A stretch of DNA of 64,000 nt. Source: Bacteroidaceae bacterium. Lineage in GTDB: Bacteria; Bacteroidota; Bacteroidia; Bacteroidales; Bacteroidaceae. This document shows positions 33,916 to 57,617 of the stretch, piece after piece. The notes under the pieces were generated by a model. It made no database searches. It was not told the DNA's origin and worked only from the letters and a program-made list of their open reading frames with translations. The position numbers were made by a program, and so were the translations under genes. Location: contig JAFZZI010000007.1 of the NCBI GenBank assembly GCA_017615835.1, positions 310,001 to 374,000 on the forward strand, given 5' to 3'. Numbering within the stretch: position 1 is the first letter of the stretch; each line of letters begins with the position of its first letter.

Positions 33916-33945
33916 GTTGATAAAAGAAAAATATGCCTATCTTTG
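33916..33945 (+). promoter_or_regulatory. Promoter of the GH43 / fasciclin-SusCD locus
   Basis: GTTG (33916-33919), 18 bases, then TATCTTTG (33938-33945): exact -7 and near-exact -33 box. The leader would be about 38 bases. Its position supports the ATG at 33990 rather than the earlier frame opening at 33933, which lies inside the promoter. Confidence 0.7.
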
Positions 33946-33989
33946 ACCGCTTAAAGGTGTATAATATAAAAATAACATATACGAGCAGT

Positions 33990-34952
33990 ATGAAAAAGCG
34001 CTATCTCTTCCCCGCTGACTATATGGCGGATCCGTCTGTTCACGTGTTCAACGGCAGGGTGTACATATACCCTTCGCATGACTGGGAGAGCGATAATGTC
34101 GAGAACGACAATGGCGACCAGTACATAATGAAGGACTATCATGTTCTTTCGACTGACGATATCATGAATGGTGAGGTCATAGATCACGGAAAGATTCTCG
34201 ATCTGGAGGATATTCCCTGGGCCGGCCGGCAGCTCTGGGACTGCGATGTGGCGGAGAAAGACGGCAAGTATTATCTTTACTTCCCGATGAAGGACCGCAA
34301 TGACGTGTTTCATCACGGTGTTGCAATTGCCGACCGTCCGGAAGGGCCGTTCATTCCACAGCCAGATCCTATCCGCGGAAGCTATAGCATCGACATGTGT
34401 GTTTTCAAGGATGACGGTGAGTACTACATGTATTTCGGAGGACTTTGGGGCGGACAACTTCAGCGCTACAAGGACAACAAGGCTCTTGAAGAGCCATATC
34501 TCCCTTCCGGTAAGGAACCTTCACTTCCCAGTCGTGTTGTAAAGCTCTCTGAAGATATGCTTCAGTTTGCTGAAGAACCGCGTCCCGTATATGTTGTCGA
34601 TGAGAACGGCAAGACCCTGACTGCCGATGACCCACACCGCTTTTTCGAAGCCCAGTGGGTGTTCAAGAAGGATGGAAAATATTATTTTACCTACTCTACG
34701 GGCGATTCGCACCTCCTGTGCTATGCAACGTCCGACAACCGTTTCGGACCTTTCACCTATCAGGGAGTAATACTCACTCCGGTGGTAGGTTGGACTACGC
34801 ACCATGCAATTATCGAGTACAAGGGCAAGTGGTATCTGTTCCATCATGACAGTGTTCCTTCGGGAGGAAAGTCATGGCTGAGAAGCCTTAAGGTCTGCGA
34901 ACTCGAATTCGATGCTGAGGGTCGAATAAAAACAATTGAAGGCAAAGACTGA
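33990..34952 (+). CDS. Family 43 glycoside hydrolase, cytoplasmic
   Basis: 320 residues from the ATG at 33990. The five-bladed propeller pattern is visible as repeated xDGKYYLYF strands. The catalytic set of GH43 fits D14 (base, MADPSVHVF), D135 (SIDMCVF) and E220 (acid, RFFEAQW); GWTTHHAII holds the metal-binding histidine. Typical members are beta-xylosidases or alpha-L-arabinofuranosidases acting on arabinoxylan-derived oligosaccharides. There is no signal peptide, so it should work on imported oligosaccharides in the cytoplasm. It is the only carbohydrate enzyme near the SusCD genes and is 91 bases upstream of the first fasciclin gene. Substrate not determinable. Confidence 0.88.
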   Translation: MKKRYLFPADYMADPSVHVFNGRVYIYPSHDWESDNVENDNGDQYIMKDYHVLSTDDIMNGEVIDHGKILDLEDIPWAGRQLWDCDVAEKDGKYYLYFPMKDRNDVFHHGVAIADRPEGPFIPQPDPIRGSYSIDMCVFKDDGEYYMYFGGLWGGQLQRYKDNKALEEPYLPSGKEPSLPSRVVKLSEDMLQFAEEPRPVYVVDENGKTLTADDPHRFFEAQWVFKKDGKYYFTYSTGDSHLLCYATSDNRFGPFTYQGVILTPVVGWTTHHAIIEYKGKWYLFHHDSVPSGGKSWLRSLKVCELEFDAEGRIKTIEGKD

Positions 34953-35043
34953 CGAAGGGTTCAGTTCAGGCACATCCGATATATTATATAAGGTGTCTGA
35001 GTTACGAGCGAGAAATTCAAAACAATAATAAAATATTAAGTAG

Positions 35044-38000
35044 ATGAAAAATTTCAATTCTGAAGGAAACCGTTCAGGGCTGCTGAAAGTTGCTTTTGTG
35101 GCTGTTGCGGCTGTTCTCGGGCTGGCTTCCTGTCAAAAAGAGTACAATCTGGACGAGACTGTGCCGGAGTGGCTGGGATCAAGTATCTACGAGTACCTGG
35201 TTGACAACGGTTACACTACCTATCAGAGACTGATTGATGACCTTGGATATCAGGAGGTCATGTCGAGGACAGGTAGTAAGACTCTTTTCATCGCGGATGA
35301 AGCTGCAGTCAACCGTTTCTATGCAAAGGGCATTTTCAAGAAGGCCGACGGAACTAATGTCACCCGCTACGAGGATCTTTCGGTTGCACAGAAGAAACTG
35401 ATGCTTTTCGGTGCAATGCTGAACAATGTATATCAGGTGGCCATGCTCTCTAGCACCGAGGGTACACCTCCGGTAGAGGGTGACGCCATGAGAAGAATAT
35501 CCTCTATCTCAATATGGGACACTGTCCCGTATCTGACTCCGGAGGTGATGCCTGAAAACAAATACTGGAATGATTTCAGGAATCGCGCCGGAATACGCTG
35601 TCTGATGGATGCAACAGACAGACCGATGGTATTCTTTACCAACAAGTTCCTCACTCTGAAAAAGATTACAGGCGACGACTATGACTTCCTGTTCAATCAG
35701 GGTCGTTATGCTCATGGCAACGGACGCGAAGGTATTACACATCAGCCTCAGGATGCCAGCGTGAACGGTGTAAACATCAAGACCCAGAACATCAAGTGTT
35801 TCAACGGCTTCATAGATGTAATGGAAGAAGTTATCTATCCTCTACCCAACATGGCCGAGTTCCTCACTGAGAGTGAGTCGACAAAGATATACGGATCGCT
35901 GCTCGAACGCTATTGTGCTCCATACTTCAGGTCGACAAACGACATTGAAGGAGCAACACCGTATCTTACCCAAACCTATAACCGGCTGAATCCCGATAGC
36001 CAGGTTGATACCGTGTATCAGAAGCGCTACTTCTCAAAGAGGTCTCAGGGTAACAATGAACTCAACATTACTGCCTATAACGTATCGGTAGCCGAGACTC
36101 TTCTCAAGTTCGATCCGGGTTGGAGTTCATACTATTCTTCAACCGCATCTACCACGGCTGCTTCTGTGGCTCTTCAGCAGAATATGGGCGTAATGCTTGT
36201 ACCCGATGATGATGCAATGCTTGCATGGTGGCTTACAGGTGGTGGTAAAACCCTGCGTGAGCGTTATGGCAAGCCGGAACTTGCCGGTTTGTCCACACTC
36301 ACGATGGATCAGTTTGTTGAGGATATTGCGGGTGTTCCGGATGATGTTATCATCGAACTTCTCAACAACAACATGCTCAACTCGTTTGTAAACTCCGTAC
36401 CTAGCAAGTTTGCGAACGTTCTTGACGACGCCAACGACCCGATGGGCCTTGAGACTAAGGATGTCAAGTCAGTACAGATGTGCTCGAACGGTGCCATTTA
36501 CTTTACAAATACGGTATTCAGCCCCACATCCTACAGGTCTGTCTCTTTCCCGGCACTTGTGGGCGAGGCCCTCAAGATAATCTACTGGTCTATTCATGAC
36601 GATGTCTGCGGTTTCAAGCCTTACCTCAACTCAATGGTTTCAACCTACAGCTTTTTCATTCCGAAGGCCAGCATACATCCTACACTTGAGGGATTGGAGG
36701 ATGTTCCGACTATCCTGTATCTTGACCCTGTGTCAGGCGGAGAGAAATATACTCAGGCCATAGCTTTCTATTATGATGAGTCGCAGATTGAATACACCGA
36801 AAAGGTGCAGGCAAAGATATATCGGTACCATCTTGAGGACGGTCAGCCGGTCATTGACGGCAAGATTGCAGATGATGTTGATTTCAGTGTAATCAAGGAC
36901 CGTCTGGAAGACCTGCTCGACTACCACATAATAATAGGTGACGTTGAGGATGGCAACAGTCTGGGAACGCCCAGCCGTTACCAGTATTTCCAGACCAAGG
37001 GCCGCGGTACCGTCAGGTTCACACTGGACGGCACCGGAAAGCGAACCGTCTGGGGCGGTTATCAGGTTGAAAACAATTCAGGTATCGAAATTGATCCCGA
37101 CTTTGTGTATGACATGAAAAAGTCCAATGGTAACGGACGTACCTACATTATTGACGAACCGCTTGCCTCGTCGGACAACTCGGTTTTTGACATTGTCAGC
37201 AATAATGCTACATATCCCGAGTTTGCAACGTTTGCCGACATGATGCTGCCTGTTTTCGCAAACGGCCAGATAAACAACCACATGACCGGCGGTACGGTTG
37301 TAAGTACTTTCAATACATATCACTATACTGTATATGTTCCCAAGAAAGAGACGCTTGACCAGATGCTTGCAGACTATAAGTTGATTGACGCCGAAATGAT
37401 ATCCGATCTCTCCGACTACTATGATGATCTGCAGGTCGGCGAAGAAGAAGATTATGTTAAGGCAATGACTCGCCTTTCGAAGGTTACCCGTGGCTCTGCC
37501 AAGACGACCTTCGCTGCAAAGAAGGCGGAATTCGAGGCTGCAAATGCAGGCTGCAATATATGGAATCCGGCAGATGCCAAGTACGCTCAGTTCTGGAACG
37601 AAGCGAATGCCATAATCGACGCTTGTCCTGACAAAGAGGGCGAAATTGACCATACCTCTTTCCTGCATGCCGACTACATCGCTTCTCTTGAGAAGTGGCT
37701 CACCGACTTTGTCAAATATCACATTCAGGATAACTCCGTATATGTCGGTGGCGAGTTTAAGATTGACACCATTCATGTAAACGATCCTTATGCACATTAC
37801 GAGACTGCCTACATGAACAGCAAGGCTCAGTTTGAGAAACTCTCGGTACGCTCGACTCCCGATGGCGTCATAACAGTCATCGACGCGAAGAACAATACTC
37901 ACAATGTCATAACCACTCCTGTAGGAGGTCAGACATACTATAATATAATGTGCCGTGAGTATGAGTACAATGCTGTAACGAATCCCACTCAGTTGGAGAC

Positions 38001-38076
38001 ATCCTCTTTCGCAGTCATCCATCTGATAGGTGAGCCTCTTGACAACGGTGTGCCTTTTACGTATTTTAAGTTCTAA
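35044..38076 (+). CDS. Large fasciclin-type lipoprotein
   Basis: A 1010-residue surface or periplasmic lipoprotein: signal peptide with lipobox LASC, Cys about residue 30. After SIYEYLVDNGYTTYQRLIDDLG, a FAS1-like opening, several FAS1-type segments can be traced: about 40-260 (SKTLFIADEAAVNRFY), about 265-500 (MGVMLVPDDDAMLAWW) and about 720-985 (HYTVYVPKKETLDQML), each ending in a G-x-hydrophobic strand such as NGFIDVMEEVIYPLP. FAS1 domains mediate adhesion or ligand binding; no catalytic residues are seen. It precedes SusC by 18 bases. Function inferred only: binding subunit for the ligand of the adjacent transporter. Confidence 0.75.
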   Translation: MKNFNSEGNRSGLLKVAFVAVAAVLGLASCQKEYNLDETVPEWLGSSIYEYLVDNGYTTYQRLIDDLGYQEVMSRTGSKTLFIADEAAVNRFYAKGIFKKADGTNVTRYEDLSVAQKKLMLFGAMLNNVYQVAMLSSTEGTPPVEGDAMRRISSISIWDTVPYLTPEVMPENKYWNDFRNRAGIRCLMDATDRPMVFFTNKFLTLKKITGDDYDFLFNQGRYAHGNGREGITHQPQDASVNGVNIKTQNIKCFNGFIDVMEEVIYPLPNMAEFLTESESTKIYGSLLERYCAPYFRSTNDIEGATPYLTQTYNRLNPDSQVDTVYQKRYFSKRSQGNNELNITAYNVSVAETLLKFDPGWSSYYSSTASTTAASVALQQNMGVMLVPDDDAMLAWWLTGGGKTLRERYGKPELAGLSTLTMDQFVEDIAGVPDDVIIELLNNNMLNSFVNSVPSKFANVLDDANDPMGLETKDVKSVQMCSNGAIYFTNTVFSPTSYRSVSFPALVGEALKIIYWSIHDDVCGFKPYLNSMVSTYSFFIPKASIHPTLEGLEDVPTILYLDPVSGGEKYTQAIAFYYDESQIEYTEKVQAKIYRYHLEDGQPVIDGKIADDVDFSVIKDRLEDLLDYHIIIGDVEDGNSLGTPSRYQYFQTKGRGTVRFTLDGTGKRTVWGGYQVENNSGIEIDPDFVYDMKKSNGNGRTYIIDEPLASSDNSVFDIVSNNATYPEFATFADMMLPVFANGQINNHMTGGTVVSTFNTYHYTVYVPKKETLDQMLADYKLIDAEMISDLSDYYDDLQVGEEEDYVKAMTRLSKVTRGSAKTTFAAKKAEFEAANAGCNIWNPADAKYAQFWNEANAIIDACPDKEGEIDHTSFLHADYIASLEKWLTDFVKYHIQDNSVYVGGEFKIDTIHVNDPYAHYETAYMNSKAQFEKLSVRSTPDGVITVIDAKNNTHNVITTPVGGQTYYNIMCREYEYNAVTNPTQLETSSFAVIHLIGEPLDNGVPFTYFKF

Positions 38077-38094
38077 CCGGCAAACAAAAGGAAT

Positions 38095-41000
38095 ATGAAA
38101 AATATAAAGAACAGAATGTTGAAGGGAGTATCAGTTCTTGCTCTCAGTCTGCTTCCGGGTATGGTTTTCGCCCAGAAGGCCGGTGACATCATCAGCGGTA
38201 CCGTTTCGGACAGTGAGGGCCCGATGATGATGGTCAACGTCATCGAGGTTGACGCCTCGGACCGTATCATCGAACATGCCATCACCGATACGGAGGGTAA
38301 CTTCTCTTTCAGGCTTGGTAGTCCCAATGATAAAATCAAGATTTCGTATGTTGGTTACGAAACAGTAATACTTCCCATTAACAAAACACGTTTCGACATC
38401 GTACTGAAGGACAACTACGAGATAACTCAGGTAGAAATCACTGCAGACCGCGTAACTGAATCGACCGGACTTGCAATCCCTATCCGTGAGGTCTCCAACG
38501 CTTCTCAACGCATTTCGATGGAGGAGTTCGAGGGACTCGGCATCACAACTGTCGATGAGGCCCTGCAGGGACGTATCGCCGGTCTTGACATCGTGTTCAA
38601 CTCGGGTGACCTCGGTGCCGGTTCGACAATGCACCTCCGTGGCGTCTCGACCATCACAGGTGATTCCAACCCGCTTATAGTTGTTGACGGAAACGTATGG
38701 AACAACGACTTCGGCAACAGTATCGATTACGCAACGGCAAACGAGGAGAAGTTCGCAGAACTGCTTAATGTAAATCCTGAGGATATCTCCAGCATCACTG
38801 TGCTCAAGGATGCCGCGGCTGCCGGTATTTGGGGCGCTCAGGGTGCCAACGGTGTAATCGAAATAAAGACGAAGCGTGGTAGCCGGGGCAAGACAAGGGT
38901 TACCTTCTCATACCGTATGAACGGTACATGGCAGCCCTCGAGCTATAACCTCCTGACAGGTGATCAGTATACAATGTTCCTCAAGGAGAGCTACTTCAAT
39001 CCGGAACTCAGTGACCAGGCTTCGGATATACCCGAAATCAACTACAACCCCAACTTCTCCGAGTACAACATGTTCAACGACAACACCGACTGGGTGTCGC
39101 TCGTGAAGTGTTTCGGAGCACAACACTCTTTTAACCTTTCCATACAGGGTGGTGGTGAGAAGGCCAACTTCCGTATATCCGCCGGTTTTGACACCCAGAA
39201 CGGTTCTGTTATAGGACAGCGTCTGAACCGTTTCACTACCCGTGTGGCACTCGACTACTTCATCTCCGACCGTATCAAGGTTGTGACAAACTACAACATG
39301 ACCTATACCCAGAGGCCGAGTTCGAGCAGCACTTCAATAGATGCAGCAATGAGGAGGATGCCTAACCTTTCGCCCTACTACGAGGATGAATTCGGCAACG
39401 ATACCGATGAGTACTACCATATGCTGCCTTATCAGAATTCCGAATCGGGCAGAAGCGATGCTCTCAGCGACCAGCGTCGTGAGCAGAATCCTCTCGCAGT
39501 CGCCTATGACAAAATCAACACTTCGACATCCCTGCAGATTCAGCCGGAGTTCCAGCTTGTCTATAACATTCTGGGCCTTGAGAACGATAAGACTAAGCTG
39601 ACATATGACGGTCGTATATCGTTTAATGTGTTCAACGATGTTTCTGACAAATTCTCGCCTGCAAGCCTCATCACTTCCGGTTGGTCGTCTGACCAGAACA
39701 ACAGGGCCGAAAACAACTCGAACAAGAGAATGAACTGGCAGACAACCCATCAGTTGACCCTTGTTCCTCATTTCAACAACTCTAACCACTCACTCATGGC
39801 TATGGCCAGGTTCCAGATAGGTGCAAGTACAGACAAGAGTCAGCGCTCTTCTGTATATGGACTTCCTTCCGGAACATTTACTTCGACTGCTCTCCCCGGT
39901 ATCATCGGTGATTTCAGCACTGGTGCAGGACAGGGCAGGTCAGCCAATGGTGTTCTCCAGGTTCACTATGCGTTCAAGGGCAAGTACATTGCCGACTTCA
40001 CAGTCCGCGCCGACGGTTCGACCGTATTCGGTGATGACAAGCGCTGGGGTGTGTTCCCGACAGTGTCGCTCAGGTGGAATATCAGTGACGAGCCCTTCAT
40101 AAGAGACAATGTCGGCTGGATTTCCATGCTCGCCATACGTCCCAGCTGGGGTATCAACGGTAGGACTCCAAACGGTGAAGGTCTGTATTACAGTAAGTAC
40201 AGAGCCGGTAATGCCTACCTCGGCATCGCTTCCATGTATCCTTCGAACATACGACTCAGCACCATGCAGTGGGAGGAGAGCCACCAATGGAATCTCGGTT
40301 TCAATGTCGGACTCTTCAACGATAAGATAGCCATTGATGTTGACCTGTACATGAAGAATACTGAAAAATTGCTTCTGAACAACTATGGTATTCCTACATC
40401 ATCTGGTTTCAGCAACCTCTCAAGCAGGAACGACGGTCGTATGCGCAATACCGGTTGGGAGTTCAACATTACGGCTAACCGTTTCATAAATATCGGAAAG
40501 TTCAATGTTACTGCTAACGCTACTTTCTCGGACAACCGCAACAGAATTCTTGAAATCAGTCCGACTTTCCTCGAAACCCTGAACGCTGAGTTCAATTTCC
40601 GTAACGGACAGAATCAGGGTGACTGGCTTACCTACGTACAGATTAATAACCCCTTCGGTTCGATCTACGGTTTCAAATATCTGGGCGTTTACCAGTACAG
40701 TGACTACAGCGAAGTTGAAGTGCCCGGTGTAAGCGGTCCGAATGCACCTGTCGTGAAGGATGCTGACGGCAAAGTTATTCTCAACCAGAAGGGTAAGACA
40801 AAGCCGATGATGTTCGCTTACGGTGAGACCAACGAGTATGAGTTCGTGGGCGGCGATGCCATCTATGAAGATATAAACCATGACGGTAACATCAACGAAC
40901 TTGATATTGTCTATCTGGGAAGTTCACTCCCGAAAATAACTGGCGGTTTCGGTTTCAGGTTCTCTTATGGACGTCTTTCGCTGAATACCCAGTTCAACTT

Positions 41001-41421
41001 CCGTTATGGCAACAAGGTTATCAACCAGGCACGCATGAACCTCGAAAACATGTACAGCAACGACAATGCTTCGGCTGCAGTCAACTGGAGGTGGCGTGTA
41101 GAGGGTGACATTACGGAAATTCCGCGTGCACTGCACCAGTACGGTTACAACTTCCTTACAAGCGATCGCTTTGTAGAGGACGGTTCTATGCTGCGTCTCA
41201 ACTATGTGCAGCTCTCCTATTCTCTGGATCCCCAAAAGCTTAAGAACATAGGCATCCAGGGTCTTTCGCTCACTGCTTCCTTAAACAACGTCTTTGTTCT
41301 TTCAAAGTATTCCGGTGCAGATCCTGAAATCGCCGCCGGCGGTTCGTGGGGCCTCTCCGTTGATAACTCCAAGACTCCTCGTTCGAAGCAGTTCACAGTT
41401 GGTCTGACTGTTAATTTCTAA
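38095..41421 (+). CDS. SusC-like TonB-dependent outer-membrane transporter (first)
   Basis: 1108 residues with signal peptide (cleavage after VFAQ). An N-terminal carboxypeptidase-regulatory-like domain (IISGTVSDSEGPMMMVNV to VGYETVILP, about 32-105) is followed by the plug with RISMEEFEGLGITTVDEALQGRIAGLDI and the SusC signature LRGVSTITGDSNPLIVVDG. A 22-strand barrel follows, ending in an aromatic-type terminal strand (FTVGLTVNF). It imports large ligands together with the SusD lid encoded next, 12 bases downstream. Ligand unknown. Confidence 0.95.
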   Translation: MKNIKNRMLKGVSVLALSLLPGMVFAQKAGDIISGTVSDSEGPMMMVNVIEVDASDRIIEHAITDTEGNFSFRLGSPNDKIKISYVGYETVILPINKTRFDIVLKDNYEITQVEITADRVTESTGLAIPIREVSNASQRISMEEFEGLGITTVDEALQGRIAGLDIVFNSGDLGAGSTMHLRGVSTITGDSNPLIVVDGNVWNNDFGNSIDYATANEEKFAELLNVNPEDISSITVLKDAAAAGIWGAQGANGVIEIKTKRGSRGKTRVTFSYRMNGTWQPSSYNLLTGDQYTMFLKESYFNPELSDQASDIPEINYNPNFSEYNMFNDNTDWVSLVKCFGAQHSFNLSIQGGGEKANFRISAGFDTQNGSVIGQRLNRFTTRVALDYFISDRIKVVTNYNMTYTQRPSSSSTSIDAAMRRMPNLSPYYEDEFGNDTDEYYHMLPYQNSESGRSDALSDQRREQNPLAVAYDKINTSTSLQIQPEFQLVYNILGLENDKTKLTYDGRISFNVFNDVSDKFSPASLITSGWSSDQNNRAENNSNKRMNWQTTHQLTLVPHFNNSNHSLMAMARFQIGASTDKSQRSSVYGLPSGTFTSTALPGIIGDFSTGAGQGRSANGVLQVHYAFKGKYIADFTVRADGSTVFGDDKRWGVFPTVSLRWNISDEPFIRDNVGWISMLAIRPSWGINGRTPNGEGLYYSKYRAGNAYLGIASMYPSNIRLSTMQWEESHQWNLGFNVGLFNDKIAIDVDLYMKNTEKLLLNNYGIPTSSGFSNLSSRNDGRMRNTGWEFNITANRFINIGKFNVTANATFSDNRNRILEISPTFLETLNAEFNFRNGQNQGDWLTYVQINNPFGSIYGFKYLGVYQYSDYSEVEVPGVSGPNAPVVKDADGKVILNQKGKTKPMMFAYGETNEYEFVGGDAIYEDINHDGNINELDIVYLGSSLPKITGGFGFRFSYGRLSLNTQFNFRYGNKVINQARMNLENMYSNDNASAAVNWRWRVEGDITEIPRALHQYGYNFLTSDRFVEDGSMLRLNYVQLSYSLDPQKLKNIGIQGLSLTASLNNVFVLSKYSGADPEIAAGGSWGLSVDNSKTPRSKQFTVGLTVNF

Positions 41422-41433
41422 TCTTAATTGCAG

Positions 41434-43164: not shown

Positions 43165-43182
43165 TTGTCTAACCGTTTACAG

Positions 43183-45207: not shown

Positions 45208-45227
45208 GAATAATAATTATTAAAGAT

Positions 45228-46976: not shown

Positions 46977-46988
46977 CCAACCCTCCCA

Positions 46989-49900: not shown

Positions 49901-50489
49901 GGCTGGAGATGTAAAATTCGTCAACACGTACACTGCTGACGATGTGAACGGAAAACATTACATCAATGAGAAGGACATGGTGAAGATCGGTGATCCCAAT
50001 CCTAAGTTGTTCGGTCACATCTACACCAAGGCCTCGTTCAAGGGCTTGACTCTCAGTGCCACATTCACATATTCTTGGGGCAATGACGTGTTCAACTACC
50101 AGAGGATGATTCTTGAGAGCGGTTCGCGCTTCAACAATCAGACCGTGGCAATGGTGAACCGCTGGACCTGTGAGGGTCAGGTTACGCAGATTCCTTCTGC
50201 AAACTACGGTGATCCTATGCAGAATGCCCGCTTCTCAGACCGTTGGATTGAGGACGGTTCTTATCTGCGCCTCAAGAACGTGACTTTGAGTTATAAACTT
50301 CCTGTCCGCAACAACATAATTCAGGGTATCACAATCTGGGGTGCTGCAAACAACCTCTTCACCCTGACCAAGTACCTTGGTGCTGATCCGGAGTTCTCAT
50401 TGAGCAACAATATCCTGACTCAGGGTATTGACCGTGGTCTGCTGCCTCAGAGCAGGAATTTCTCTATCGGTTTGAAGATTAACCTCTAA
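46989..50489 (+). CDS. SusC-like TonB-dependent transporter (second), with tandem N-terminal domains
   Basis: 1166 residues with signal peptide (cleavage near VISAQ34). Two carboxypeptidase-regulatory-like domains lie in tandem: about 41-105 (MRTISGTVVDAATGNAMSGV) and 130-190 (MRTVTGTVYDGAFGTPMPGV), the second clearly a copy of the first. The plug has a degenerate SusC signature (VSGINSLNINTQPLFVIDG) and the barrel ends in FSIGLKINL. SusCs normally have one such domain. Alternative ATGs at 47001 and 47007 would shorten the signal peptide slightly. Pairs with the next SusD, 5 bases on. Ligand unknown. Confidence 0.93.
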   Translation: MIKIMKMNISRMVKGLIPMGILSLVLMFPAVISAQSNAGNMRTISGTVVDAATGNAMSGVTVQAYGNSGYTATTDGSGAYSISIPSGVDMLSFLRSGFVTVNSPISHLGEPVVMWKGNSGGASAPVSGGMRTVTGTVYDGAFGTPMPGVRIQAYNNGLHAAMTKEDGTYSIQVPDYITSLTFMVDGCNNTVSSIAGKSGPVDVLMFPEKFSELYATKTDATISKKSLVSSMNADLSVDQQIQSGLLGDVRAITRSGQLGAGVDLLVSGINSLNINTQPLFVIDGVIMDVQSTRETIHDGYFNNILSNLMVDDIESVTVLKNGLAIYGSKGANGVILIDTKRNHSMATRIDVSLAGNYQLMPKYPDMMNASQYRSYVSELLGTTTAEVSDDYKFLQLDPNYYYYNTYHNDTDWGKEAYRNAFVQSYSINVDGGDDIAKYNLSVGFANGNATLKSNDYQRFNLRLNSDIILGNKVSVRFDASYSDVTRDLRDDGVPSDVDDATITAPAFLSLIKSPFLTAYSYDINKQPSPFLAKNDDYLEEVLGEEVSLANPVSILQNGEGTNKNYLGSRLINIAITPKISINRFWSISEHFSYTMTSVDENYYIPIFGTPSFKVAGVGEVDNKVAAMSSQQSAFMSNTYFNFDKRVKASNWHVSAGFRWISNVYKQNSMLGYNSGNDKTPNMSTNLQYKSTAGIDDKDVSLTWWAQGNYSFRERYYIYAGLGLSASSRFGGDVSNGLKLAGVPWGIFPSAAFSWVMSSEPWFKARFINYLKLNAAFDLTGNDGFNDTASRTYFSPIHILGESGASGLSMANIGNSTLQWETTTRYSAGLDINLFKNYLSISANAFLSYTNNLLSISRLSYMTGIEDSWSNGGSLKNIGFDVSAILKLVNHKNFAWEAGLSVGKYKNELTSLPDNDRAFNTNIYGANVRSMVGEPVGIFWGYKTDGVFSTTTEANAANLYMKAVTGQDMPFEAGDVKFVNTYTADDVNGKHYINEKDMVKIGDPNPKLFGHIYTKASFKGLTLSATFTYSWGNDVFNYQRMILESGSRFNNQTVAMVNRWTCEGQVTQIPSANYGDPMQNARFSDRWIEDGSYLRLKNVTLSYKLPVRNNIIQGITIWGAANNLFTLTKYLGADPEFSLSNNILTQGIDRGLLPQSRNFSIGLKINL

Positions 50490-50494
50490 TTATT

Positions 50495-52324
50495 ATGACA
50501 ATGAAAACGAAATCCACTATATTCACAGCGTGTGCAGCTGTCCTGTTCGGTCTGACTTCCTGCCAGAAGATGCTGACGACGGAATCTACCATCGTTATGT
50601 TCGAGCAGGATCATGAACTGAATGAATCTACGGATACTCTTTATTCAGTTGTCGGTATTCTCCAGAAGATTCAGAAGATTGCAGACCGGACTGTCCTGTT
50701 CGGTGAATTGAGGGGCGACCTTACATCCCTGAACGAGTATGCTTCTTCAGACCTGTCTGAAATAAGCAACTTCAGTGTTTCCAAGGAGAACAAGTACAAC
50801 AATGCACTTGACTATTATGCCGTAATCAACAACTGCAACTACTATCTTGCAAAGGCTGATACTTCCTACAAGAAGAATAAGCGCTATATCTTCCGTGACG
50901 AGTACGGAGTGGTTCTCGGCTATCGTGCCTGGGCTTACATCAAGTTGGCTGAAGCCTACGGAAAGGTCCCCTTCGTTACAGAACCTATAGTTAACGGCGC
51001 CATGGCTGACGCTTCGCTCTACCCGTTGCTTGACATAAAGGAGATTTCAAAGCGCCTGATTCCGGACCTTGAGCCATTCGTTGACATCGAACAGCCCAAG
51101 TACGGCACCATGGGCGATTTCAACTCGGCCGACTTCTTCCTTCCTACCCGTCTTATCCTTGCAGAGCTCTGTCTCTGGGCTGGAGACGGATACTATGTGA
51201 AGGCTGCAAAGTATCTGCACGACTATGTATCTTCGGTTGACAGGCATGTCTATACAAACCTTCACCATGTCTGGTGGAGGACGCGTGATTTCGTGTCAAC
51301 TGACGATTCTTACTCTTCACTGTTCGGACAGTCCAGAGCAGAGCAGATTATCTCCTTCATTCCGATGGAGTCTCAGGAGTTCATGGGTGTTACCAGTGAG
51401 TTGGATGACATCTACACCTCAACGAAGGATAATTATTACTACTTCAAGGCTACGGCGTCGCCGGCACTCCGTTCTCTTGCTGCAAGTCAGGCCTTCTGCT
51501 TTGTCGAGTACGACCCGCTGCCGAACGAGTATTATGTTTCTCCCGAAGAGATGCCTGATCAGCTGACTAAGGGTGACCTTCGTCTCTACTCTGTACTTGA
51601 TGTTGACGATGACATTGCAGATGAGAAACTTGCATCTACCTTCAATACGAGGAAACAGATTCTTAGAAAAATTGACCCCTTAAGAATTTGTGTATTTAGA
51701 AAAGACCTTGTATATTTGCGACTGGCAGAGGCTTTAAATTGCGCAGGTATGCCCGAAGCGGCATTTGCTGTGCTGAAATATGGCTTGTGCGAAGATTATG
51801 TTATGGAGTACGTAAGCAAGGAGGAGAGGGCTATGGCAGAACCCAACAAACTGCTTGATTTCAGCAGAAACTATTTCTACCAGTATGCTTACAGTCCCAC
51901 TCAGGGCGGCGTCAATTCCAGGAGTAATACTCAGGGAATCCACAGCCGCGGATCAGGTGAGGCTCAGCTTGATACCACTTACGTCCTCAAGTGCCATCCG
52001 GATACTCTTTCTGCAAGGTATCTTGCAATGAGCGACGCGGACAAGTCCGCATATCTGGATTCTGTAAGGAGTGAGCAACAGATTGAAGTTGAGGAGTATC
52101 TCATCAACGAACTTGCTCTGGAAACTTCGTTCGAAGGCAACCGTTTCGGCGATCTCGTCAGGTTCTCGATGCATCGCGCCGAGAAGAACGGCGGTTATAC
52201 CGACAATGCTTTCGTCGCGGAGAGAGTTGCAAAGAGGAATGGTGCCTTGGATCAGGCCCTTTATGACAAACTTAAAGGCGACGGTACCGGATATAACAAG
52301 GACTGGTACCTTCAGCTTCCTTAA
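50495..52324 (+). CDS. SusD-like surface lipoprotein (second)
   Basis: 609 residues; lipobox LTSC (Cys about 23). SusD features: VLGYRAWAYIKLAEAYGKVPFVT (TPR part), YLRLAEALNCAGMPEAAF and the late INELALETSFEGNRFGDLVRFS, which stands for the LxxERxxELxxEGxRxxDLxR element. A patch at 51660-51740 is much richer in A+T and in rare codons (TTA, AGA) than the rest and contains an exact promoter sequence. The protein body is otherwise intact. Forms the lid of SusC 2. Confidence 0.92.
   Translation: MTMKTKSTIFTACAAVLFGLTSCQKMLTTESTIVMFEQDHELNESTDTLYSVVGILQKIQKIADRTVLFGELRGDLTSLNEYASSDLSEISNFSVSKENKYNNALDYYAVINNCNYYLAKADTSYKKNKRYIFRDEYGVVLGYRAWAYIKLAEAYGKVPFVTEPIVNGAMADASLYPLLDIKEISKRLIPDLEPFVDIEQPKYGTMGDFNSADFFLPTRLILAELCLWAGDGYYVKAAKYLHDYVSSVDRHVYTNLHHVWWRTRDFVSTDDSYSSLFGQSRAEQIISFIPMESQEFMGVTSELDDIYTSTKDNYYYFKATASPALRSLAASQAFCFVEYDPLPNEYYVSPEEMPDQLTKGDLRLYSVLDVDDDIADEKLASTFNTRKQILRKIDPLRICVFRKDLVYLRLAEALNCAGMPEAAFAVLKYGLCEDYVMEYVSKEERAMAEPNKLLDFSRNYFYQYAYSPTQGGVNSRSNTQGIHSRGSGEAQLDTTYVLKCHPDTLSARYLAMSDADKSAYLDSVRSEQQIEVEEYLINELALETSFEGNRFGDLVRFSMHRAEKNGGYTDNAFVAERVAKRNGALDQALYDKLKGDGTGYNKDWYLQLP
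51687..51718 (+). promoter_or_regulatory. Promoter-like sequence inside the second SusD gene
   Basis: TTTG (51687-51690), 20 bases, TATATTTG (51711-51718): a full match to the Bacteroidetes promoter, in sense orientation within codons for the VYLRLAEALN region. It could start a shorter transcript covering the end of SusD 2 and the secreted protein. Chance occurrence in an A+T-rich patch is possible. Confidence 0.4.
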
Positions 52325-52334
52325 CGCATATTTG

Positions 52335-52364
52335 CCTGGCACTGCGTATATCGCAGGTGCCGGG
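52335..52364 (+). other. Intercistronic hairpin after the second SusD gene
   Basis: CCTGGCACTGCG (52335-52346) pairs with CGCAGGTGCCGGG (52352-52364) in about 12 base pairs with one bulge around TATAT. There is no T-run, so rather than a terminator it may stabilise the upstream mRNA or mark a processing site and make expression of the next gene differ from that of SusCD. Confidence 0.55.
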
Positions 52365-52424
52365 TAGATTATTTGAGAGAGAAATTTGTGTTATTAACCT
52401 TTTTATTAACTAAACAAAAAGTTT

Positions 52425-55400
52425 ATGAAAAAACTTAACTTGTTGTTGGCTGGTTCACTTCTGCTGATGGGCGCTAACGTCCAGGCACAGGAACTGATCT
52501 GGTCAGAAGATTTCGAGCAGGGTCTGGGCTTCTTTACAGACTCTATTCCCGCAGGCTATATCGACGGCCTGGATTATTACATCGGCAGGACTGCCGGAAA
52601 CGGTACTTGGGATGTAAACACCCACAAGAACGGTTTCCTGCATGTTGACACCATGATTGCCCTTTATCATTCAATCGCTCCGGTGAACACCCCGGGCCAG
52701 CGTATTGACGAGGTTTCCGTTGTCGAGGCTGACGCTGCTCATGCCAAGACTCTCGAGAAACTCGGCGGCGAAGGTGGCAGCTACTATCTGAGGTATGTTT
52801 CTGGCCCCAGCTCCTACGGTTTCAACCAGTGGGGTGGCAAGCCCGGTGTTACCAACGACTATCAGGCTAACGTTTTCGTTCGTGGTATTCCAATCGAGGA
52901 GAACACTTCGTATCGTGTTGTTTATTTCATGAACATGGGTAGCCCTGTTGACTCGGCTCAGCTTGACCTCCGTCTGATGCGTGGCTGGTACAACTCTGAG
53001 AAGGCTTTCACCACCAGCGGTGCTTCAGGTGCGACAGAGTTCACCCAGCAGGTTACAATGGGTGACAGTACCTTCAAGAATGGCCAGTGGGACCGTTACA
53101 CCTACATGACTTACTACACCACCGACTCAATTGCCAACCATGCAGTTCATCAGAATGGTTACTGGTGGGTCGACGAGTGGAAAGGTGTGTTGTGGTCTCG
53201 CAGGAACCAGTTCTCAGAGGACACCATCAGGATGTTCGCCGAATACAATGGCGGTGCTCTGCCCGATACCCTTCCTGTTGATTCTGCTACCAATGCAAGG
53301 TGGGGATGGATTGTCCAGCCGGACACCTATATGCTCCGCTTCTCTTTCCAGGGCCCGAACGGAACCTACCTGGTTGATGATATTTCACTCTACAAGTCAT
53401 TTATCGGTGCTGCCGAGTACAGCGGCGATATGATTCGTGTTGACTTCGGTTATAAGACCAACCTTGGAGATCTTTGCGATCCCAACGGTGTTGGTGCCGC
53501 TGCCGTTCCTGCTGACTGCATCGAGGTTACCGTTGCTGATGGTGACGGGCGTTCTACCCTTGATGTTCTTGACGCTGAATATCACAGCGATGGCTATCTG
53601 TACTTGTGGCTCGAGGACGAGGTTGAGTACTATGATGATATCAGAATCAACTTCAAGAACCCGTCAGATCCCGCATTCCAGCTGAAGTATACTTCAAGCA
53701 GCCGTTATCCGAAGGCTAACGACGCTGACTGGGTTGATGCCGGCAAGATCGTTCCTGACTTCCAGAACGAGTTCGTACTCCCGAGAGCTTTCTCAGCTGT
53801 TTCAATTCCTTACCTTGCTCCTTCTGTAAAGGATTCCGATCCTGATGAGGGTTCATTCGGCCTTGACGGTGCTAAGAACCGTGAGATCATCGTTACCTTC
53901 AACAAGCCTGTTGCAAACGAGGCTGTTGCCTTCATCTCAGGTGAGGGGTGCGAGGATGTCCAGTTGACCAATGCAGGTTATGTCGATGAGGAGAAGAAGG
54001 TCATCAAGTTTGAGTTCACAAACAAGGTTCCGACCAACCTCAATGGTGACTATGTAATTCTCGTTGACAGGCTGAAGGCTAAGTCAGAGCAGAGCGACAA
54101 GGCTGCCACCGGTGCAGAACAGGGTCCGAGCTTCAAGATCAACATTTCTTACGGCGAGCCCGATGTTACCGTTCCCGGTTCAGCTAAGACCAACTATGAC
54201 AAGCTTGTCAAGTCTTACAATGCTGCTGACGAGCAGATTGTCAAGGGTGAGAGCGATCTCGCCAACTATGGTGGTACTGCTTTCGAGGCATTCCAGGCTC
54301 TCGTTGCTCAGTATGAGCCGACTGCTTTCCTGAAGAACAACACTTCACCGAAGGCTTATACCGCTGCTTCAAAGGCTCTTGATGATGCTACCACAGAGAT
54401 CAAGGCTCGTTTTGCTAATGTTGACGCTCTGAAGTCAATTCTTGACAAGTCAGATGTTCTCCTTGCAGATTATGCTGACAAGTTCGGCTCATATTCAGAG
54501 TATGCTGATCTCTACGCTAAGGTTGCAGATGCTAAGGCTGTATCTGTTCCTTCAACCAGCAATGCTGACATTCAGGCACTCGTTGACGGCTTGACCGCTT
54601 CTTACGATGACGCTGACGCTGTTATCCAGACAGTCCTGGTTACTACCGATCAGATCAACAAGCTGTATGATCTTGCCAAGTCTCTGGATGCTTCTCTCGG
54701 TGTCAAGTATGCTGACGCTGTGACAGCTGCCGTTTCTGACGATCAGGATCTTGCACAGATTCTCAAGCTCGAGGCTACCAAGGCTCTCTACACCCAGATT
54801 GTTGCCGGAAGTACAGATACAGTTGACGTAACCGGTTTCATCACCAACCCGACTCTCTACACCACAGCTCTTCTTGACAAGGATGTTCAGTACTACTATT
54901 ACAACTGGGGTGATCCGCACGACAAGTGGAGAGTTATTTACACAACCGATGATGGTACAAACTCTATCTTCCCGGGCTGGAATCTTGTAAACAAGTCTGG
55001 TAACCTCCATGTTGCTAACGGTCCTTGGGGCGGTGGCAATGGTGATCAGGGTTACTATGCAAAGGCAGAGGGCTTTGCTGTAGCAGGTCACCTTGCAGCT
55101 GACTGGTCAACCGACTTCAGACTTACACAGACTGTTGAGGATCTGCCCGCAGGTATTTACTCTCTTGGTGTAAACTACGGTGGTGGTGAGAACAATAAGG
55201 CTAAGCAGTGCCTTATCGCCGACAATTTTGTCAAGGCTGACTCCGTTGCTGCTGATCCCGGTCAGTATCAGGCTCCGATTTCTGTTGACAGTGTTGTCAT
55301 TGGCAGCTCTATGAAGATTACGGCTGTTCACACTGGCGGTAACTTCTGGTCAAGACTTGACAACTTCAGCCTGAAGTTCACAGGCAAGCTTGATAACTAC

Positions 55401-55574
55401 AATTATGTGATGGCTATCGCCGGTCTTGAGGAGGAAATCACCAAGGTTGCTCCGCTGGAGAGCGATCAGTCTGTCAAGTTCTATGACATGAACGGTATCG
55501 AGATTCCTGCTCCTGAGAAGGGCCGCATCTCAATCCGCGTATCCAATGGCGTAGCTACCAAGGTATTTGAATAA
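52425..55574 (+). CDS. Large secreted multidomain protein
   Basis: 1049 residues with a classical signal peptide (LLLAGSLLLMGANVQAQ) and no lipobox, so secreted. Domains by eye: an N-terminal beta-sandwich (FEQGLGFF to YLVDDISLYKS, about 30-325) like carbohydrate-binding modules; an Ig-like segment with EIIVTFNKPV (about 470-580); an alanine-rich helical part (585-800) with repeated YDKLVKSYNAADEQ-like heptads; another beta-sandwich ending NFWSRLDNFSLKF (about 810-1000); and a short tail VKFYDMNGIEI...GVATKVFE resembling type IX secretion sorting tails, but shorter. Codon choice suggests strong expression. It lies 100 bases after SusD 2 and is closed by a strong terminator. No catalytic site seen. 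Confidence 0.75.
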   Translation: MKKLNLLLAGSLLLMGANVQAQELIWSEDFEQGLGFFTDSIPAGYIDGLDYYIGRTAGNGTWDVNTHKNGFLHVDTMIALYHSIAPVNTPGQRIDEVSVVEADAAHAKTLEKLGGEGGSYYLRYVSGPSSYGFNQWGGKPGVTNDYQANVFVRGIPIEENTSYRVVYFMNMGSPVDSAQLDLRLMRGWYNSEKAFTTSGASGATEFTQQVTMGDSTFKNGQWDRYTYMTYYTTDSIANHAVHQNGYWWVDEWKGVLWSRRNQFSEDTIRMFAEYNGGALPDTLPVDSATNARWGWIVQPDTYMLRFSFQGPNGTYLVDDISLYKSFIGAAEYSGDMIRVDFGYKTNLGDLCDPNGVGAAAVPADCIEVTVADGDGRSTLDVLDAEYHSDGYLYLWLEDEVEYYDDIRINFKNPSDPAFQLKYTSSSRYPKANDADWVDAGKIVPDFQNEFVLPRAFSAVSIPYLAPSVKDSDPDEGSFGLDGAKNREIIVTFNKPVANEAVAFISGEGCEDVQLTNAGYVDEEKKVIKFEFTNKVPTNLNGDYVILVDRLKAKSEQSDKAATGAEQGPSFKINISYGEPDVTVPGSAKTNYDKLVKSYNAADEQIVKGESDLANYGGTAFEAFQALVAQYEPTAFLKNNTSPKAYTAASKALDDATTEIKARFANVDALKSILDKSDVLLADYADKFGSYSEYADLYAKVADAKAVSVPSTSNADIQALVDGLTASYDDADAVIQTVLVTTDQINKLYDLAKSLDASLGVKYADAVTAAVSDDQDLAQILKLEATKALYTQIVAGSTDTVDVTGFITNPTLYTTALLDKDVQYYYYNWGDPHDKWRVIYTTDDGTNSIFPGWNLVNKSGNLHVANGPWGGGNGDQGYYAKAEGFAVAGHLAADWSTDFRLTQTVEDLPAGIYSLGVNYGGGENNKAKQCLIADNFVKADSVAADPGQYQAPISVDSVVIGSSMKITAVHTGGNFWSRLDNFSLKFTGKLDNYNYVMAIAGLEEEITKVAPLESDQSVKFYDMNGIEIPAPEKGRISIRVSNGVATKVFE

Positions 55575-55604
55575 CTAAGGTTAGACTTATATCTGATAAA
55601 TTGA

Positions 55605-55638
55605 TAGCGGGGAGATTGCCTCCCCGCTATTTTTTTTG
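55605..55638 (+). terminator. Terminator of the fasciclin-SusCD operon
   Basis: ATAGCGGGGAG (55605-55615) and CTCCCCGCTAT (55621-55631) make a perfect 11-bp stem with an ATTGC loop, followed directly by a run of T residues. Very strong. Confidence 0.95.
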
Positions 55639-55708
55639 CTATATATAGTTCTTTCGGTATTTTTTATTATTTTTGTGCAATTTGATAAAAATTCATACAC
55701 TGTTATTT

Positions 55709-57565
55709 ATGGCAAATCAGTCTTCAGGTCTTGGTGAAGCTCAGGGCTACTACAAGTTAAACTGGCTTCAGCGTATAGGCTTCGGTTCGGGTGACATGGC
55801 CCAGAACCTTATTTATCAGACAATAAGTATCTGGCTTCTTTTCTTCTACACAAACGTCTTCGGTTTACCGGCAGGGGTGGCTGCAACTATGTTCCTTGTG
55901 GTACGTCTTGTAGATGTCCTGTGGGATCCGGTTGTTGGCGCAATGATAGACAAGAATCATCCTAAACTTGGCAAATACCGCTCTTGGCTTATTTTCGGAG
56001 GTATTCCACTTACCGGTCTTGCGATTCTCTGTTTCTGGAATGGTGTACATGACCATAAACTTCTTTACGCTTACCTGACTTATGTCGGTATGTCTATGTG
56101 CTATACGCTTGTGAACGTTCCGTATGGCGCAATCAATTCTTCTCTTACGCGCGATACAAACGAAATCACCATATTGACTTCGACCCGTATGTTCATGGCT
56201 AACCTTGGCGGTCTCATCGTAAAGACTGTTCCTCTGATTGTTGCTGGAGTTTTTCTCTCTCAGCAGGGTACCAAGTTCAATGGGATAGGTGATTTTGTAA
56301 AGAAAACTGCTGCCAGCGACAACATCCTGAAGAGCCCTGATTCCGCTCATGCGTGGTTTGTTACGATGCTCATTTTCGCTCTTGCCGGTCTGGTTTTCCT
56401 TATTTTCTGCTTCACTCAGTCGAAGGAGAAGGTAGTCATGGACGAAAAAGAGGCTGCAAACGTCAAGGCTTCTGACCTCTTTACAGAGTTTGTCAGAAAC
56501 AGACCGCTCCGTATCCTTGCATTCTTTTTTATCACAGCTTTCGCTATGATGAGTATAAGCAATGCTGCTGACTCATATTATATGACTTATAATCTTCATG
56601 CCAACTCTGGCCAGACGACACTTTTCATGTGGCTCGGAACTATTCCGGCATTCATTTTCATGCCTCTTGTTCCAGCAATCAAGAAGAAGGTCGGCAAGAA
56701 CGGAATGTTCTACCTTTTCCTTTCATGCGCCATTGTCGGTATGGCATTACAGTATATTTTTACCCAGACGGCACTCTTTGAGGGTAAGTTCTGGCTCCTC
56801 TACTGCGTCCAGTTTATCAAGTCAACCGGTATCATCGTTGCTACAGGTTACATGTGGGCTCTCGTTCCCGAAGTCGTGGCTTATGGCGAGTTCACTACAG
56901 GCCGCCGTATCGCCGGTATCGTCAATGCCCTGACTGGAATCTTCTTCAAGGCAGGAATGGCTCTTGGCGGTGTCGTCCCGGGTCTTGTAATAGCAGCAGT
57001 AGGTTTCTACCGTCCCCAGGAAAAATCGATGGCTGAACTTGTAACGGACGAATCGGCCAAGGTTACTCAGATAGTAGCTTCTGCCAATGGATCAACCTCT
57101 TCTTTGCAGTCTTCATACGATGCCTTGATGTTTGCTGCCTCAGACACTTTGTCGGGATCTCTCCAGTCTTATGCAGAGAGCGTCAATGCAAAGGCAATCT
57201 CGTTCTTTGAGGCTGCAAAACAGGCAGACAGCAGTATGGGCTCTGCTTCGAAGGAGGTAAGCAAGGTGCTAGGAAAGTTGAAGAAAGATTCTAAACAGAT
57301 TGTAAAGCAGACCGGTGAATTGGTCAAGTATTCTACGACCTTGACAAAGAACGGTGAGAGTTATCCTGCAAGCGCCGTTGCCTCGTTGATGAAGGAGCCT
57401 GTCCAGACTTCTTTGGCAAAGCAGGGAATTCTGTGGCTGGTAACAATTATTCCTGCCATACTACTGATGCTTGCTATCTGGATTATCAGCAAATATGAAC
57501 TCTCCGATGAAAAGATGGATGAGATAAACGCTGCCATTGAAGCTAAGGCTGCCAATGAGAAATAA
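55709..57565 (+). CDS. GPH-family sugar:cation symporter with inserted domain
   Basis: 618 residues from the ATG at 55709 (about 12 codons after a TTG). N-terminal part LQRIGFGSGDMAQNLIYQTISIWLLFFYTNVFG and DPVVGAMIDK are marks of the MelB/XynB glycoside-pentoside-hexuronide symporters; 12 membrane helices are expected. Normal members have about 450-500 residues; here residues 434-573 form a polar helical domain (SMAELVTDESAKV to QTSLAKQG) inserted between helices 11 and 12, where the loop should be periplasmic. It probably imports the oligosaccharides released at the surface. Own transcription unit: upstream and downstream terminators. Confidence 0.9.
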   Translation: MANQSSGLGEAQGYYKLNWLQRIGFGSGDMAQNLIYQTISIWLLFFYTNVFGLPAGVAATMFLVVRLVDVLWDPVVGAMIDKNHPKLGKYRSWLIFGGIPLTGLAILCFWNGVHDHKLLYAYLTYVGMSMCYTLVNVPYGAINSSLTRDTNEITILTSTRMFMANLGGLIVKTVPLIVAGVFLSQQGTKFNGIGDFVKKTAASDNILKSPDSAHAWFVTMLIFALAGLVFLIFCFTQSKEKVVMDEKEAANVKASDLFTEFVRNRPLRILAFFFITAFAMMSISNAADSYYMTYNLHANSGQTTLFMWLGTIPAFIFMPLVPAIKKKVGKNGMFYLFLSCAIVGMALQYIFTQTALFEGKFWLLYCVQFIKSTGIIVATGYMWALVPEVVAYGEFTTGRRIAGIVNALTGIFFKAGMALGGVVPGLVIAAVGFYRPQEKSMAELVTDESAKVTQIVASANGSTSSLQSSYDALMFAASDTLSGSLQSYAESVNAKAISFFEAAKQADSSMGSASKEVSKVLGKLKKDSKQIVKQTGELVKYSTTLTKNGESYPASAVASLMKEPVQTSLAKQGILWLVTIIPAILLMLAIWIISKYELSDEKMDEINAAIEAKAANEK

Positions 57566-57585
57566 CAGTCTCTTGATGTGACTGA

Positions 57586-57617
57586 AAAAGGGGCTGCGGT
57601 TTCTCGGAGCCCCTTTT
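57586..57617 (+). terminator. Terminator of the symporter gene
   Basis: AAAAGGGGCT (57586-57595) and AGCCCCTTTT (57608-57617) form a 10-bp stem, and the T-run is part of the right arm; it could act in both directions. Confidence 0.85.

Follow-up and report, generated by a model that had tools for sequence, protein, structure and literature searches.

A conserved gene cassette combining two SusCD pairs with FAS1 lipoproteins in Bacteroidales, with a probable role in xylan uptake

Introduction

Why should a single bacterial locus encode two different SusCD transporters and place genes for fasciclin-domain (FAS1) proteins before and between them? SusCD systems are a main polysaccharide uptake route of gut and rumen Bacteroidota, and the partners described for them at the cell surface are hydrolases and proteins that bind glycans. 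The question is raised by a 64,000-nucleotide stretch of DNA from a Bacteroidaceae bacterium (G000:C32:310001-374000; genome of 2.34 Mb, 81.8% complete), referred to here as the window. Ten plus-strand genes sit there between the genes for tyrosyl-tRNA synthetase and purH, in the order GH43 (a family of glycoside hydrolases, GH), FASa, SusC1, SusD1, FASb, FASc, SusC2, SusD2, SEC (secreted protein) and GPH symporter. The seven genes from FASa to SusD2 are called the cassette below. In our reading, which we consider probable, the block encodes a single outer-membrane module for glycan uptake that combines two different SusCD transporters with two or three surface lipoproteins of the FAS1 type. 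Within Bacteroidales the module would be passed on and diversify as a unit, and in this bacterium it most likely imports fragments of (glucurono)xylan. The gene order, including the preceding GH43 gene and the terminator between SEC and the symporter, had been read from the letters in the original prediction for this DNA and was confirmed by the coordinates of the open reading frames (ORFs) together with Pfam and TIGR scans.

Results

Conservation and linkage of the cassette

A scan of genome contigs for the FASb family returned 444 relatives, and the analysis used the best 80 loci. The order FASa-SusC1-SusD1-FASb-FASc-SusC2-SusD2 was exact in 54 of these best 80, and six were partial at contig ends. 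Full-order records include Paraprevotella clara (L129), P. xylaniphila (L133), Hallella seregens (L118), Xylanibacter muris (L143) and Prevotella sp. MGM1 (L142). Loci L076-L079, from the window's own genus, belong to metagenome-assembled genomes from horse, buffalo and yak. The cassette also recurs within genomes, as most of the 50 genomes searched hold extra FASa copies (match counts include fragments). We sampled 40 further FASa copies from the better-scoring matches listed, excluding the locus that had brought each genome in, and found the exact order in 36 of the 40; three were cut by contig ends and one (L234) had no FASb. Six of the seven cassettes of P. clara are complete, the other having no FASb in place, and all five of Hallella are complete. 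With the SusC1 of P. clara as query, seven SusC proteins scored at least 1004 bits (the query itself included), all of them in cassettes, and the next match scored 185 bits. At one P. clara locus (L174, L175) the cassette has no FASb in place; two FASb-like genes lie just before its FASa, and downstream there is a gene for a GH29 alpha-fucosidase.

Linkage was counted in 150 related genomes, with strong matches defined as E<1e-100 for FASa and >750 bits for SusC1; the counts omit FASa matches weaker than E 1e-100 and nine SusC matches below 750 bits, and SusC matches above E 1e-150 were never included. Strong FASa and strong SusC1 matches occurred in the same 59 of the 150 genomes. Every strong SusC1 gene had FASa directly upstream (83/83, at a spacing of 12-522 bases), and SusC1 followed 83 of the 85 strong FASa matches. 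The contig ends just past the start of SusC1 at L280 (family f39), and at L282 SusC1 is split over two ORFs. Eight of the nine SusC matches below 750 bits (L272-L279, L281) proved to be distant complete cassettes, and at L277 there was no SusD1 among the ORFs picked. Four of these loci, each with the seven-gene order, come from other families of the same order, namely L272 (f30), L273 (f59, where FASa runs off the contig end), L274 (f8) and L275 (f24, where the second SusD was labelled by a SusD1 query); their FAS1 proteins share 19-35% identity with whichever query of the window or P. clara is nearest. L276, L278, L279 and L281 (family f1) hold complete cassettes.

Altogether, a complete ordered cassette was present in 108 of 139 loci (138 from relatives plus the window). 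Pairwise distances of the seven genes, measured over 106 cassettes, correlated with r of 0.89-0.96, and the maximum r for FASa against SusC1 in 200 label shuffles was 0.15. The correlated distances show joint inheritance and are consistent with physical contact, of which they are no proof. Because the order is conserved in relatives, chance is excluded as the source of the gene grouping. The conserved FAS1-SusCD-FAS1 order that the original prediction proposed to look for is found across the best 80 loci, the paralogues and the four loci of other families. Its suggestion that FAS1 lipoproteins are accessory subunits of SusCD transporters holds as far as regular companionship goes. Since FAS1 genes regularly accompany both SusCD pairs, a role as accessory transporter parts is their best reading.

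Properties of the encoded proteins

FASa (35044..38076, +) is a predicted large FAS1 lipoprotein of 1010 residues, FASb (43165..45207, +) and FASc (45228..46976, +) are predicted FAS1 lipoproteins, and the C-terminal regions of the latter two have no Pfam match. Against the Pfam Fasciclin cut-off of 22 bits (PF02469), FASa scores 29.1 bits, with no single stretch passing alone; FASb scores 49.7 bits over residues 60-203; and FASc falls just under with 20.0 bits. When three FASc relatives were scanned, two scored 28.8 and 38.4 bits and that of L129 had no Fasciclin match. All 51 aligned FASa members match Fasciclin, the best at 4.5e-19. Profile-profile comparison gave probabilities of 98.3 for FASb with FASc and 97.7 for FASa with FASb, and the best matches of the FAS1 families among solved structures are periostin and TGFBIp, with E 1.2e-19 for the FASc family profile against periostin. 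A profile comparison made to count the FAS1 domains of FASa gave a late match (probability 90) covering residues 710-790, further pieces near 45-136 and near 239-275, and between these nothing but weak hits. We assign at least two FAS1-like regions to FASa and do not claim four.

The lipoprotein assignment was addressed with alignments of the window protein and members from 50 (FASa), 50 (FASb) and 29 (FASc) of the 54 full-order loci. A cysteine following a signal-like N-terminus is invariant in each: C30 of FASa in 51/51, C33 of FASb in 51/51 and C23 of FASc in 30/30. Because of this invariant column, all three proteins look as expected for lipoproteins. A loose lipobox pattern was dropped as proof, the pattern being found in 41 of 108 SusC1 proteins as well.

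SusC1 (38095..41421, +) and SusC2 (46989..50489, +) are TonB-dependent transporters that score 628.9 and 543.8 bits, respectively, against TIGR04056, above its cut-off of 368 bits. SusC1 belongs to a distinct clade and SusC2 has two stretches matching CarboxypepD_reg; the nearest solved relative of both is the dextran utilisome SusC 8aa4. The SusD1 lipoprotein (41428..43164, +) is above both SusD cut-offs in Pfam (PF07980, 80 bits; PF14322, 48 bits). The divergent SusD lipoprotein SusD2 (50495..52324, +) is above one of the two, with 27.8 bits for PF14322 (cut-off 27) and 21.8 bits for PF07980 (cut-off 23.1). Along the ten genes the intergenic gaps are 91, 18, 6, 0, 20, 12, 5, 100 and 98 bases, which leaves a spacing of 0-20 bases within the seven-gene core. 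TTG is the listed start of SusD1, FASb and the symporter, and FASb has an ATG six codons in.

Enzymes associated with the cassette

The GH43 gene of the window (33933..34952, +; PF04616, 80 bits) encodes a predicted cytoplasmic beta-xylosidase, with no signal sequence apparent by eye; an internal ATG at residue 20 may be its true start. Specificity is mixed within the GH43 family; this member has the beta-xylosidase 4mlg as its nearest solved relative, with E 1.9e-158 over residues 21-337. In 11 of the 54 full-order loci a relative of the gene comes immediately before the cassette, and nine further members of the genus have genes ahead of the cassette that share 76-84% identity with it. An MFS relative is found upstream of GH43 in L185, L186 and L188, and in L156 with a GH10 gene between.

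In P. clara the neighbourhood consists of an MFS_2/GPH symporter gene, GH10, GH43, GH67, the cassette, SEC and further genes that include GH115, an esterase and GH43 genes, a glucuronoxylan set. The layout is the same in P. xylaniphila (L192, L193). A gene for a 1362-residue protein downstream in P. clara (L158:3695-7783) resembles, by sequence only, a hybrid two-component system regulator. Taken together, the closeness of GH43 to a beta-xylosidase and the GH10, GH67 and GH115 genes beside the Paraprevotella cassette make xylan the likely substrate of this orthologue.

Enzyme proximity was counted in 50 genomes with an orthologous cassette (20 for GH67), within 20 kb on the same contig. Same-contig matches were chosen by eye among the matches listed, and the listing was least complete for GH97, a starch-type family that served as control. 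Among the matches listed, GH115 was near the cassette in 10/50 genomes, GH10 in 11/50, GH67 in 6/20 and GH97 in 4/50. If every match were listed, chance alone would give 2.7 for GH115, 3.1 for GH10 and 4.2 for GH97, assuming genomes of 3.2 Mb and the 153, 178 and 235 matches found for these three families.

Several features by which a polysaccharide utilization locus (PUL) is recognized were considered in the window. It has two adjacent susC/susD pairs. Among the 19 ORFs scanned (29822-63459; small and antisense ORFs were not scanned) the cytoplasmic-type GH43 is the only glycoside hydrolase, and neither a regulator nor a secreted glycoside hydrolase was matched. The earlier statement that secreted enzymes and regulators are absent holds among these ORFs, where the family of SEC is unclear; as regards enzymes, it does not extend to the system as a whole. 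Since enzymes adjoin the cassette in relatives such as P. clara, their absence is a layout of the window's genus. Two further proposals, that the locus is unlike a classical PUL and that it takes up a ligand needing no digestion, are not supported in view of the P. clara arrangement, in which the same cassette lies inside a xylan PUL, flanked by xylan enzymes on both sides.

The genes next to the paralogous cassettes differ. A next downstream gene was found in 36 of the 50 loci examined, several being housekeeping genes. The ten that were scanned encode a GH3 protein with CBM6, a GH28-GH10 protein, a Glyco_hydro_cc protein, a GH27, a DUF2264/GH88-like protein, a GH29, an esterase, a protein with FG-GAP repeats, one with BspA-type leucine-rich repeats and one without a match. 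The GH28-GH10 protein (L198:17295-19847, +) is a fusion of pectinase and xylanase with the GH28 domain first and the GH10 domain second; its gene comes immediately after a paralogous cassette. Because the paralogues border other enzymes, the cassette looks like a reusable chassis that stays constant while its neighbours vary.

Other features of the locus

SEC (52425..55574, +) has a signal-like N-terminus and no lipobox, and the lipobox pattern was found in none of 17 relatives. The family lies downstream in 18 of the 54 full-order loci. No clear family was found for SEC, the only matches being a weak Big_5 here and a weak CBM_4_9 in the P. clara relative, both below cut-off. SEC is possibly a non-catalytic glycan-binding protein. 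Roles as an enzyme or as cargo of the type IX secretion system were discarded, with no family match beyond those two. In L191, from a horse-gut member of the window's genus, two SEC relatives stand in tandem after the cassette (L191:11181-17001, -; one of 1244 residues, the other incomplete at the border of the stretch), so that SEC seems to duplicate; the pair precedes a protein that has InlB B-repeats and matches GH30 weakly.

An intrinsic terminator (55603..55638, +), whose 12-pair stem and T tract were located at 55603-55631, separates SEC from the gene for a GPH-family cation:sugar symporter (55673..57565, +; TIGR00792, 320 bits; PF13347, 324 bits). The Pfam and TIGR matches of the symporter end at about residue 450-456, and some 120 extra residues rich in Ser, Ala and Lys (roughly 455-580, by eye) precede its last membrane helix.

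In the window's genome (82% complete) the SusC1 query finds three SusC genes, two of which are those of this cassette; TIGR04056 has 14 matches there, weak ones included, three of them among the matches listed. Given the three SusC genes found with SusC1, the source bacterium may rely largely on this uptake system.

Discussion

We propose that SusD1, SusD2 and the FAS1 lipoproteins would capture a xylan chain at the cell surface and present it to SusC1 and SusC2, which would import oligosaccharides with energy from TonB. The GPH symporter may then move short xylo-oligosaccharides into the cytoplasm, where the predicted GH43 beta-xylosidase would free xylose. What the sequences show directly is the content, order, linkage and co-divergence of the genes and the enzymes around them; from these we infer the docking of the FAS1 proteins on the transporters and the pairing of SusC1 with SusC2, as well as the surface location, binding, substrate and transport direction.

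Several observations weigh against a module of this kind. Co-divergence is expected for any genes that are inherited together, and most of the remaining points concern FASb and the link with xylan. In the window's genus, FASa and SusC1 occur in 35 of 37 genomes (G025 and G028 have neither at the linkage thresholds), and FASb is not in place in 22 of 36 FASa copies (14 in place), judged by positions among the matches listed. Nine of the 22 were read (L285, L286-L293), and in all nine SusD1, FASc and SusC2 follow one another directly. L174 and L234 likewise have no FASb in the operon. Conversely, in 20 of the best 80 loci the stretch examined contains FASb but nothing that matches SusC or SusD, and G028 has FASb without FASa or a strong SusC1 match. 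For this reason FASb may act in its own right. FASb as an obligate subunit was ruled out by the operons that lack it, and it follows from its loss in the genus and its solo occurrence elsewhere that the stable core is the hexad FASa-SusC1-SusD1-FASc-SusC2-SusD2, which FASb frequently joins as a member that can be detached.

The neighbours of solo FASb genes bear on an alternative that we take seriously and judge unlikely, in which the FAS1 proteins act on their own as glycan-binding lipoproteins of the cell surface. They would then do no more than share the operon, and would bind xylan or the plant wall without touching the transporters. One solo FASb (L088:9980-12031) adjoins a gene that Pfam confirms as glucuronate isomerase (UxaC). 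In the window's own genome one FASb relative (L057) lies near arabinofuranosidase, GH43, GH31 and GH95 genes, and at L056 two FASb paralogues lie beside GH8, a sugar kinase of the FGGY type and two GH43 genes, where this genome keeps some xylan-type enzymes away from the cassette (it was not searched for GH10, GH67 or GH115). Such placements speak for an independent binder, as does the fact that some members of the genus have lost FASb from the operon. FASa and FASc stay beside the SusCD pairs in paralogues with differing neighbours, and also in other families, where they are 19-30% identical to the query nearest to them. Because their placement is constant despite changing neighbours, we favour structural partners of the transporters over substrate-specific binders. 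In further genus members, solo FASb stands beside a gene that looks like glucuronate isomerase by sequence (L090:9932-12055, L284:13618-15637); the L284 copy of FASb is divided between two ORFs.

With regard to xylan, the genomes in the proximity counts are related and hence not independent, and by the matches listed only 16 of the 50 orthologue loci have a GH10, GH67 or GH115 gene at a distance of 20 kb or less. GH10, GH115 and the control GH97 are each present in 50/50 genomes, which makes presence alone uninformative. Within 20 kb, and among the matches listed, no GH10 or GH115 was found in the six same-genus genomes of these 50, nor GH67 in the three searched. Since none of these families was near the cassette in the same-genus genomes searched, the xylan link of the genus rests on GH43, the symporter and L191. 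A cargo other than xylan, such as an arabinan or pectin fragment, with the xylan link confined to relatives, would fit this picture, and also the lack of a xylanase next to the window cassette among the 19 ORFs scanned, the mixed specificity of GH43, and paralogues bordering GH27, GH28-GH10, GH29 and a GH88-like protein. We find it rather improbable for this copy, given that the window GH43 is by far closest to 4mlg, that its close relatives recur before the cassette in the genus, and that the genes downstream of the cassette in L191 include one that matches GH30 weakly (24.1 bits against a cut-off of 23) and one for a GH43 whose C-terminal domain is that of a beta-xylosidase. Finally, adhesion of the FAS1 proteins to plant particles or host surfaces beside transporters that are merely nearby is very improbable: animal FAS1 domains do mediate adhesion according to the available part of one review, which also calls that role context-dependent and possibly misleading for walled cells (PMC6032426), and periostin and TGFBIp are the closest solved structures, yet FASa is tied one to one to a single SusC clade.

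A glycan-uptake module of two SusCD pairs and FAS1 lipoproteins therefore remains our preferred interpretation. We offer a more specific version tentatively, as one that falls short of probable: the cassette may represent an undescribed class of Bacteroidales outer-membrane importer in which SusC1D1 and SusC2D2 form one hetero-paired machine. FAS1 lipoproteins would hold its two unlike transporters together or feed them, FASa acting with SusC1, FASc with SusC2, and FASb serving as a capture arm that can detach; the whole would be a fixed chassis for many glycans amid changing enzymes. The occurrence of the unit in seven copies in P. clara and in several families suggests a standard machine that is annotated merely as 'fasciclin domain protein'. 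Through the cassette, the reason why loci of this group hold two different SusCD pairs becomes testable, and a role in bacteria is suggested for FAS1 domains. FASa can be used as a search handle, in that 83 of 85 strong matches marked such a system.

Comparison with known systems

FASa, FASb and FASc have FAS1 domains in common with periostin and TGFBIp. Unlike these, they are predicted bacterial lipoproteins with other C-terminal regions and are tied to SusCD genes. No description of FAS1 proteins with SusCD was found in the open-licence literature, as far as the available portions of the papers go (PMC10199937, PMC6032426, PMC7661554 and PMC2668756 among them), and one may exist elsewhere. 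A Sus-like system whose FAS1 partners form a widely conserved set thus seems undescribed, while tandem SusCD pairs for xylan are already known. According to the excerpts available, such pairs serve xylan in Prevotella bryantii (xusABCD) and Segatella copri (NQ_13805-13865), and the S. copri locus includes GH10, an arabinofuranosidase and a hybrid two-component system (HTCS) regulator (PMC8002723, PMC11784079). The likeness lies in the two tandem SusCD pairs and, in P. clara, in the surrounding GH10, GH43, GH67 and GH115 genes. The difference is that those excerpts mention no FAS1 gene (PMC8002723, PMC11784079), and for PMC11784079 the terms 'fasciclin' and 'FAS1 domain' both score no occurrence, whereas here FAS1 genes lie before and between the pairs. 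The xus type is defined by contiguous pairs with nothing between them; FASb and FASc intervene in the window, and FASc alone in the hexads read.

The levan and dextran utilisomes of Bacteroides thetaiotaomicron, as far as the available text describes them, have surface lipoproteins docked stably on a SusCD core (PMC7618045). Both arrangements join a SusCD core to further surface lipoproteins, which in the utilisome form one complex (PMC7618045) and here may form one. In contrast to the utilisome, with its one SusCD pair, glycoside hydrolase and surface glycan-binding protein in the same text (PMC7618045), the cassette, itself without a surface hydrolase, brings together two unlike SusCD pairs and FAS1 proteins.

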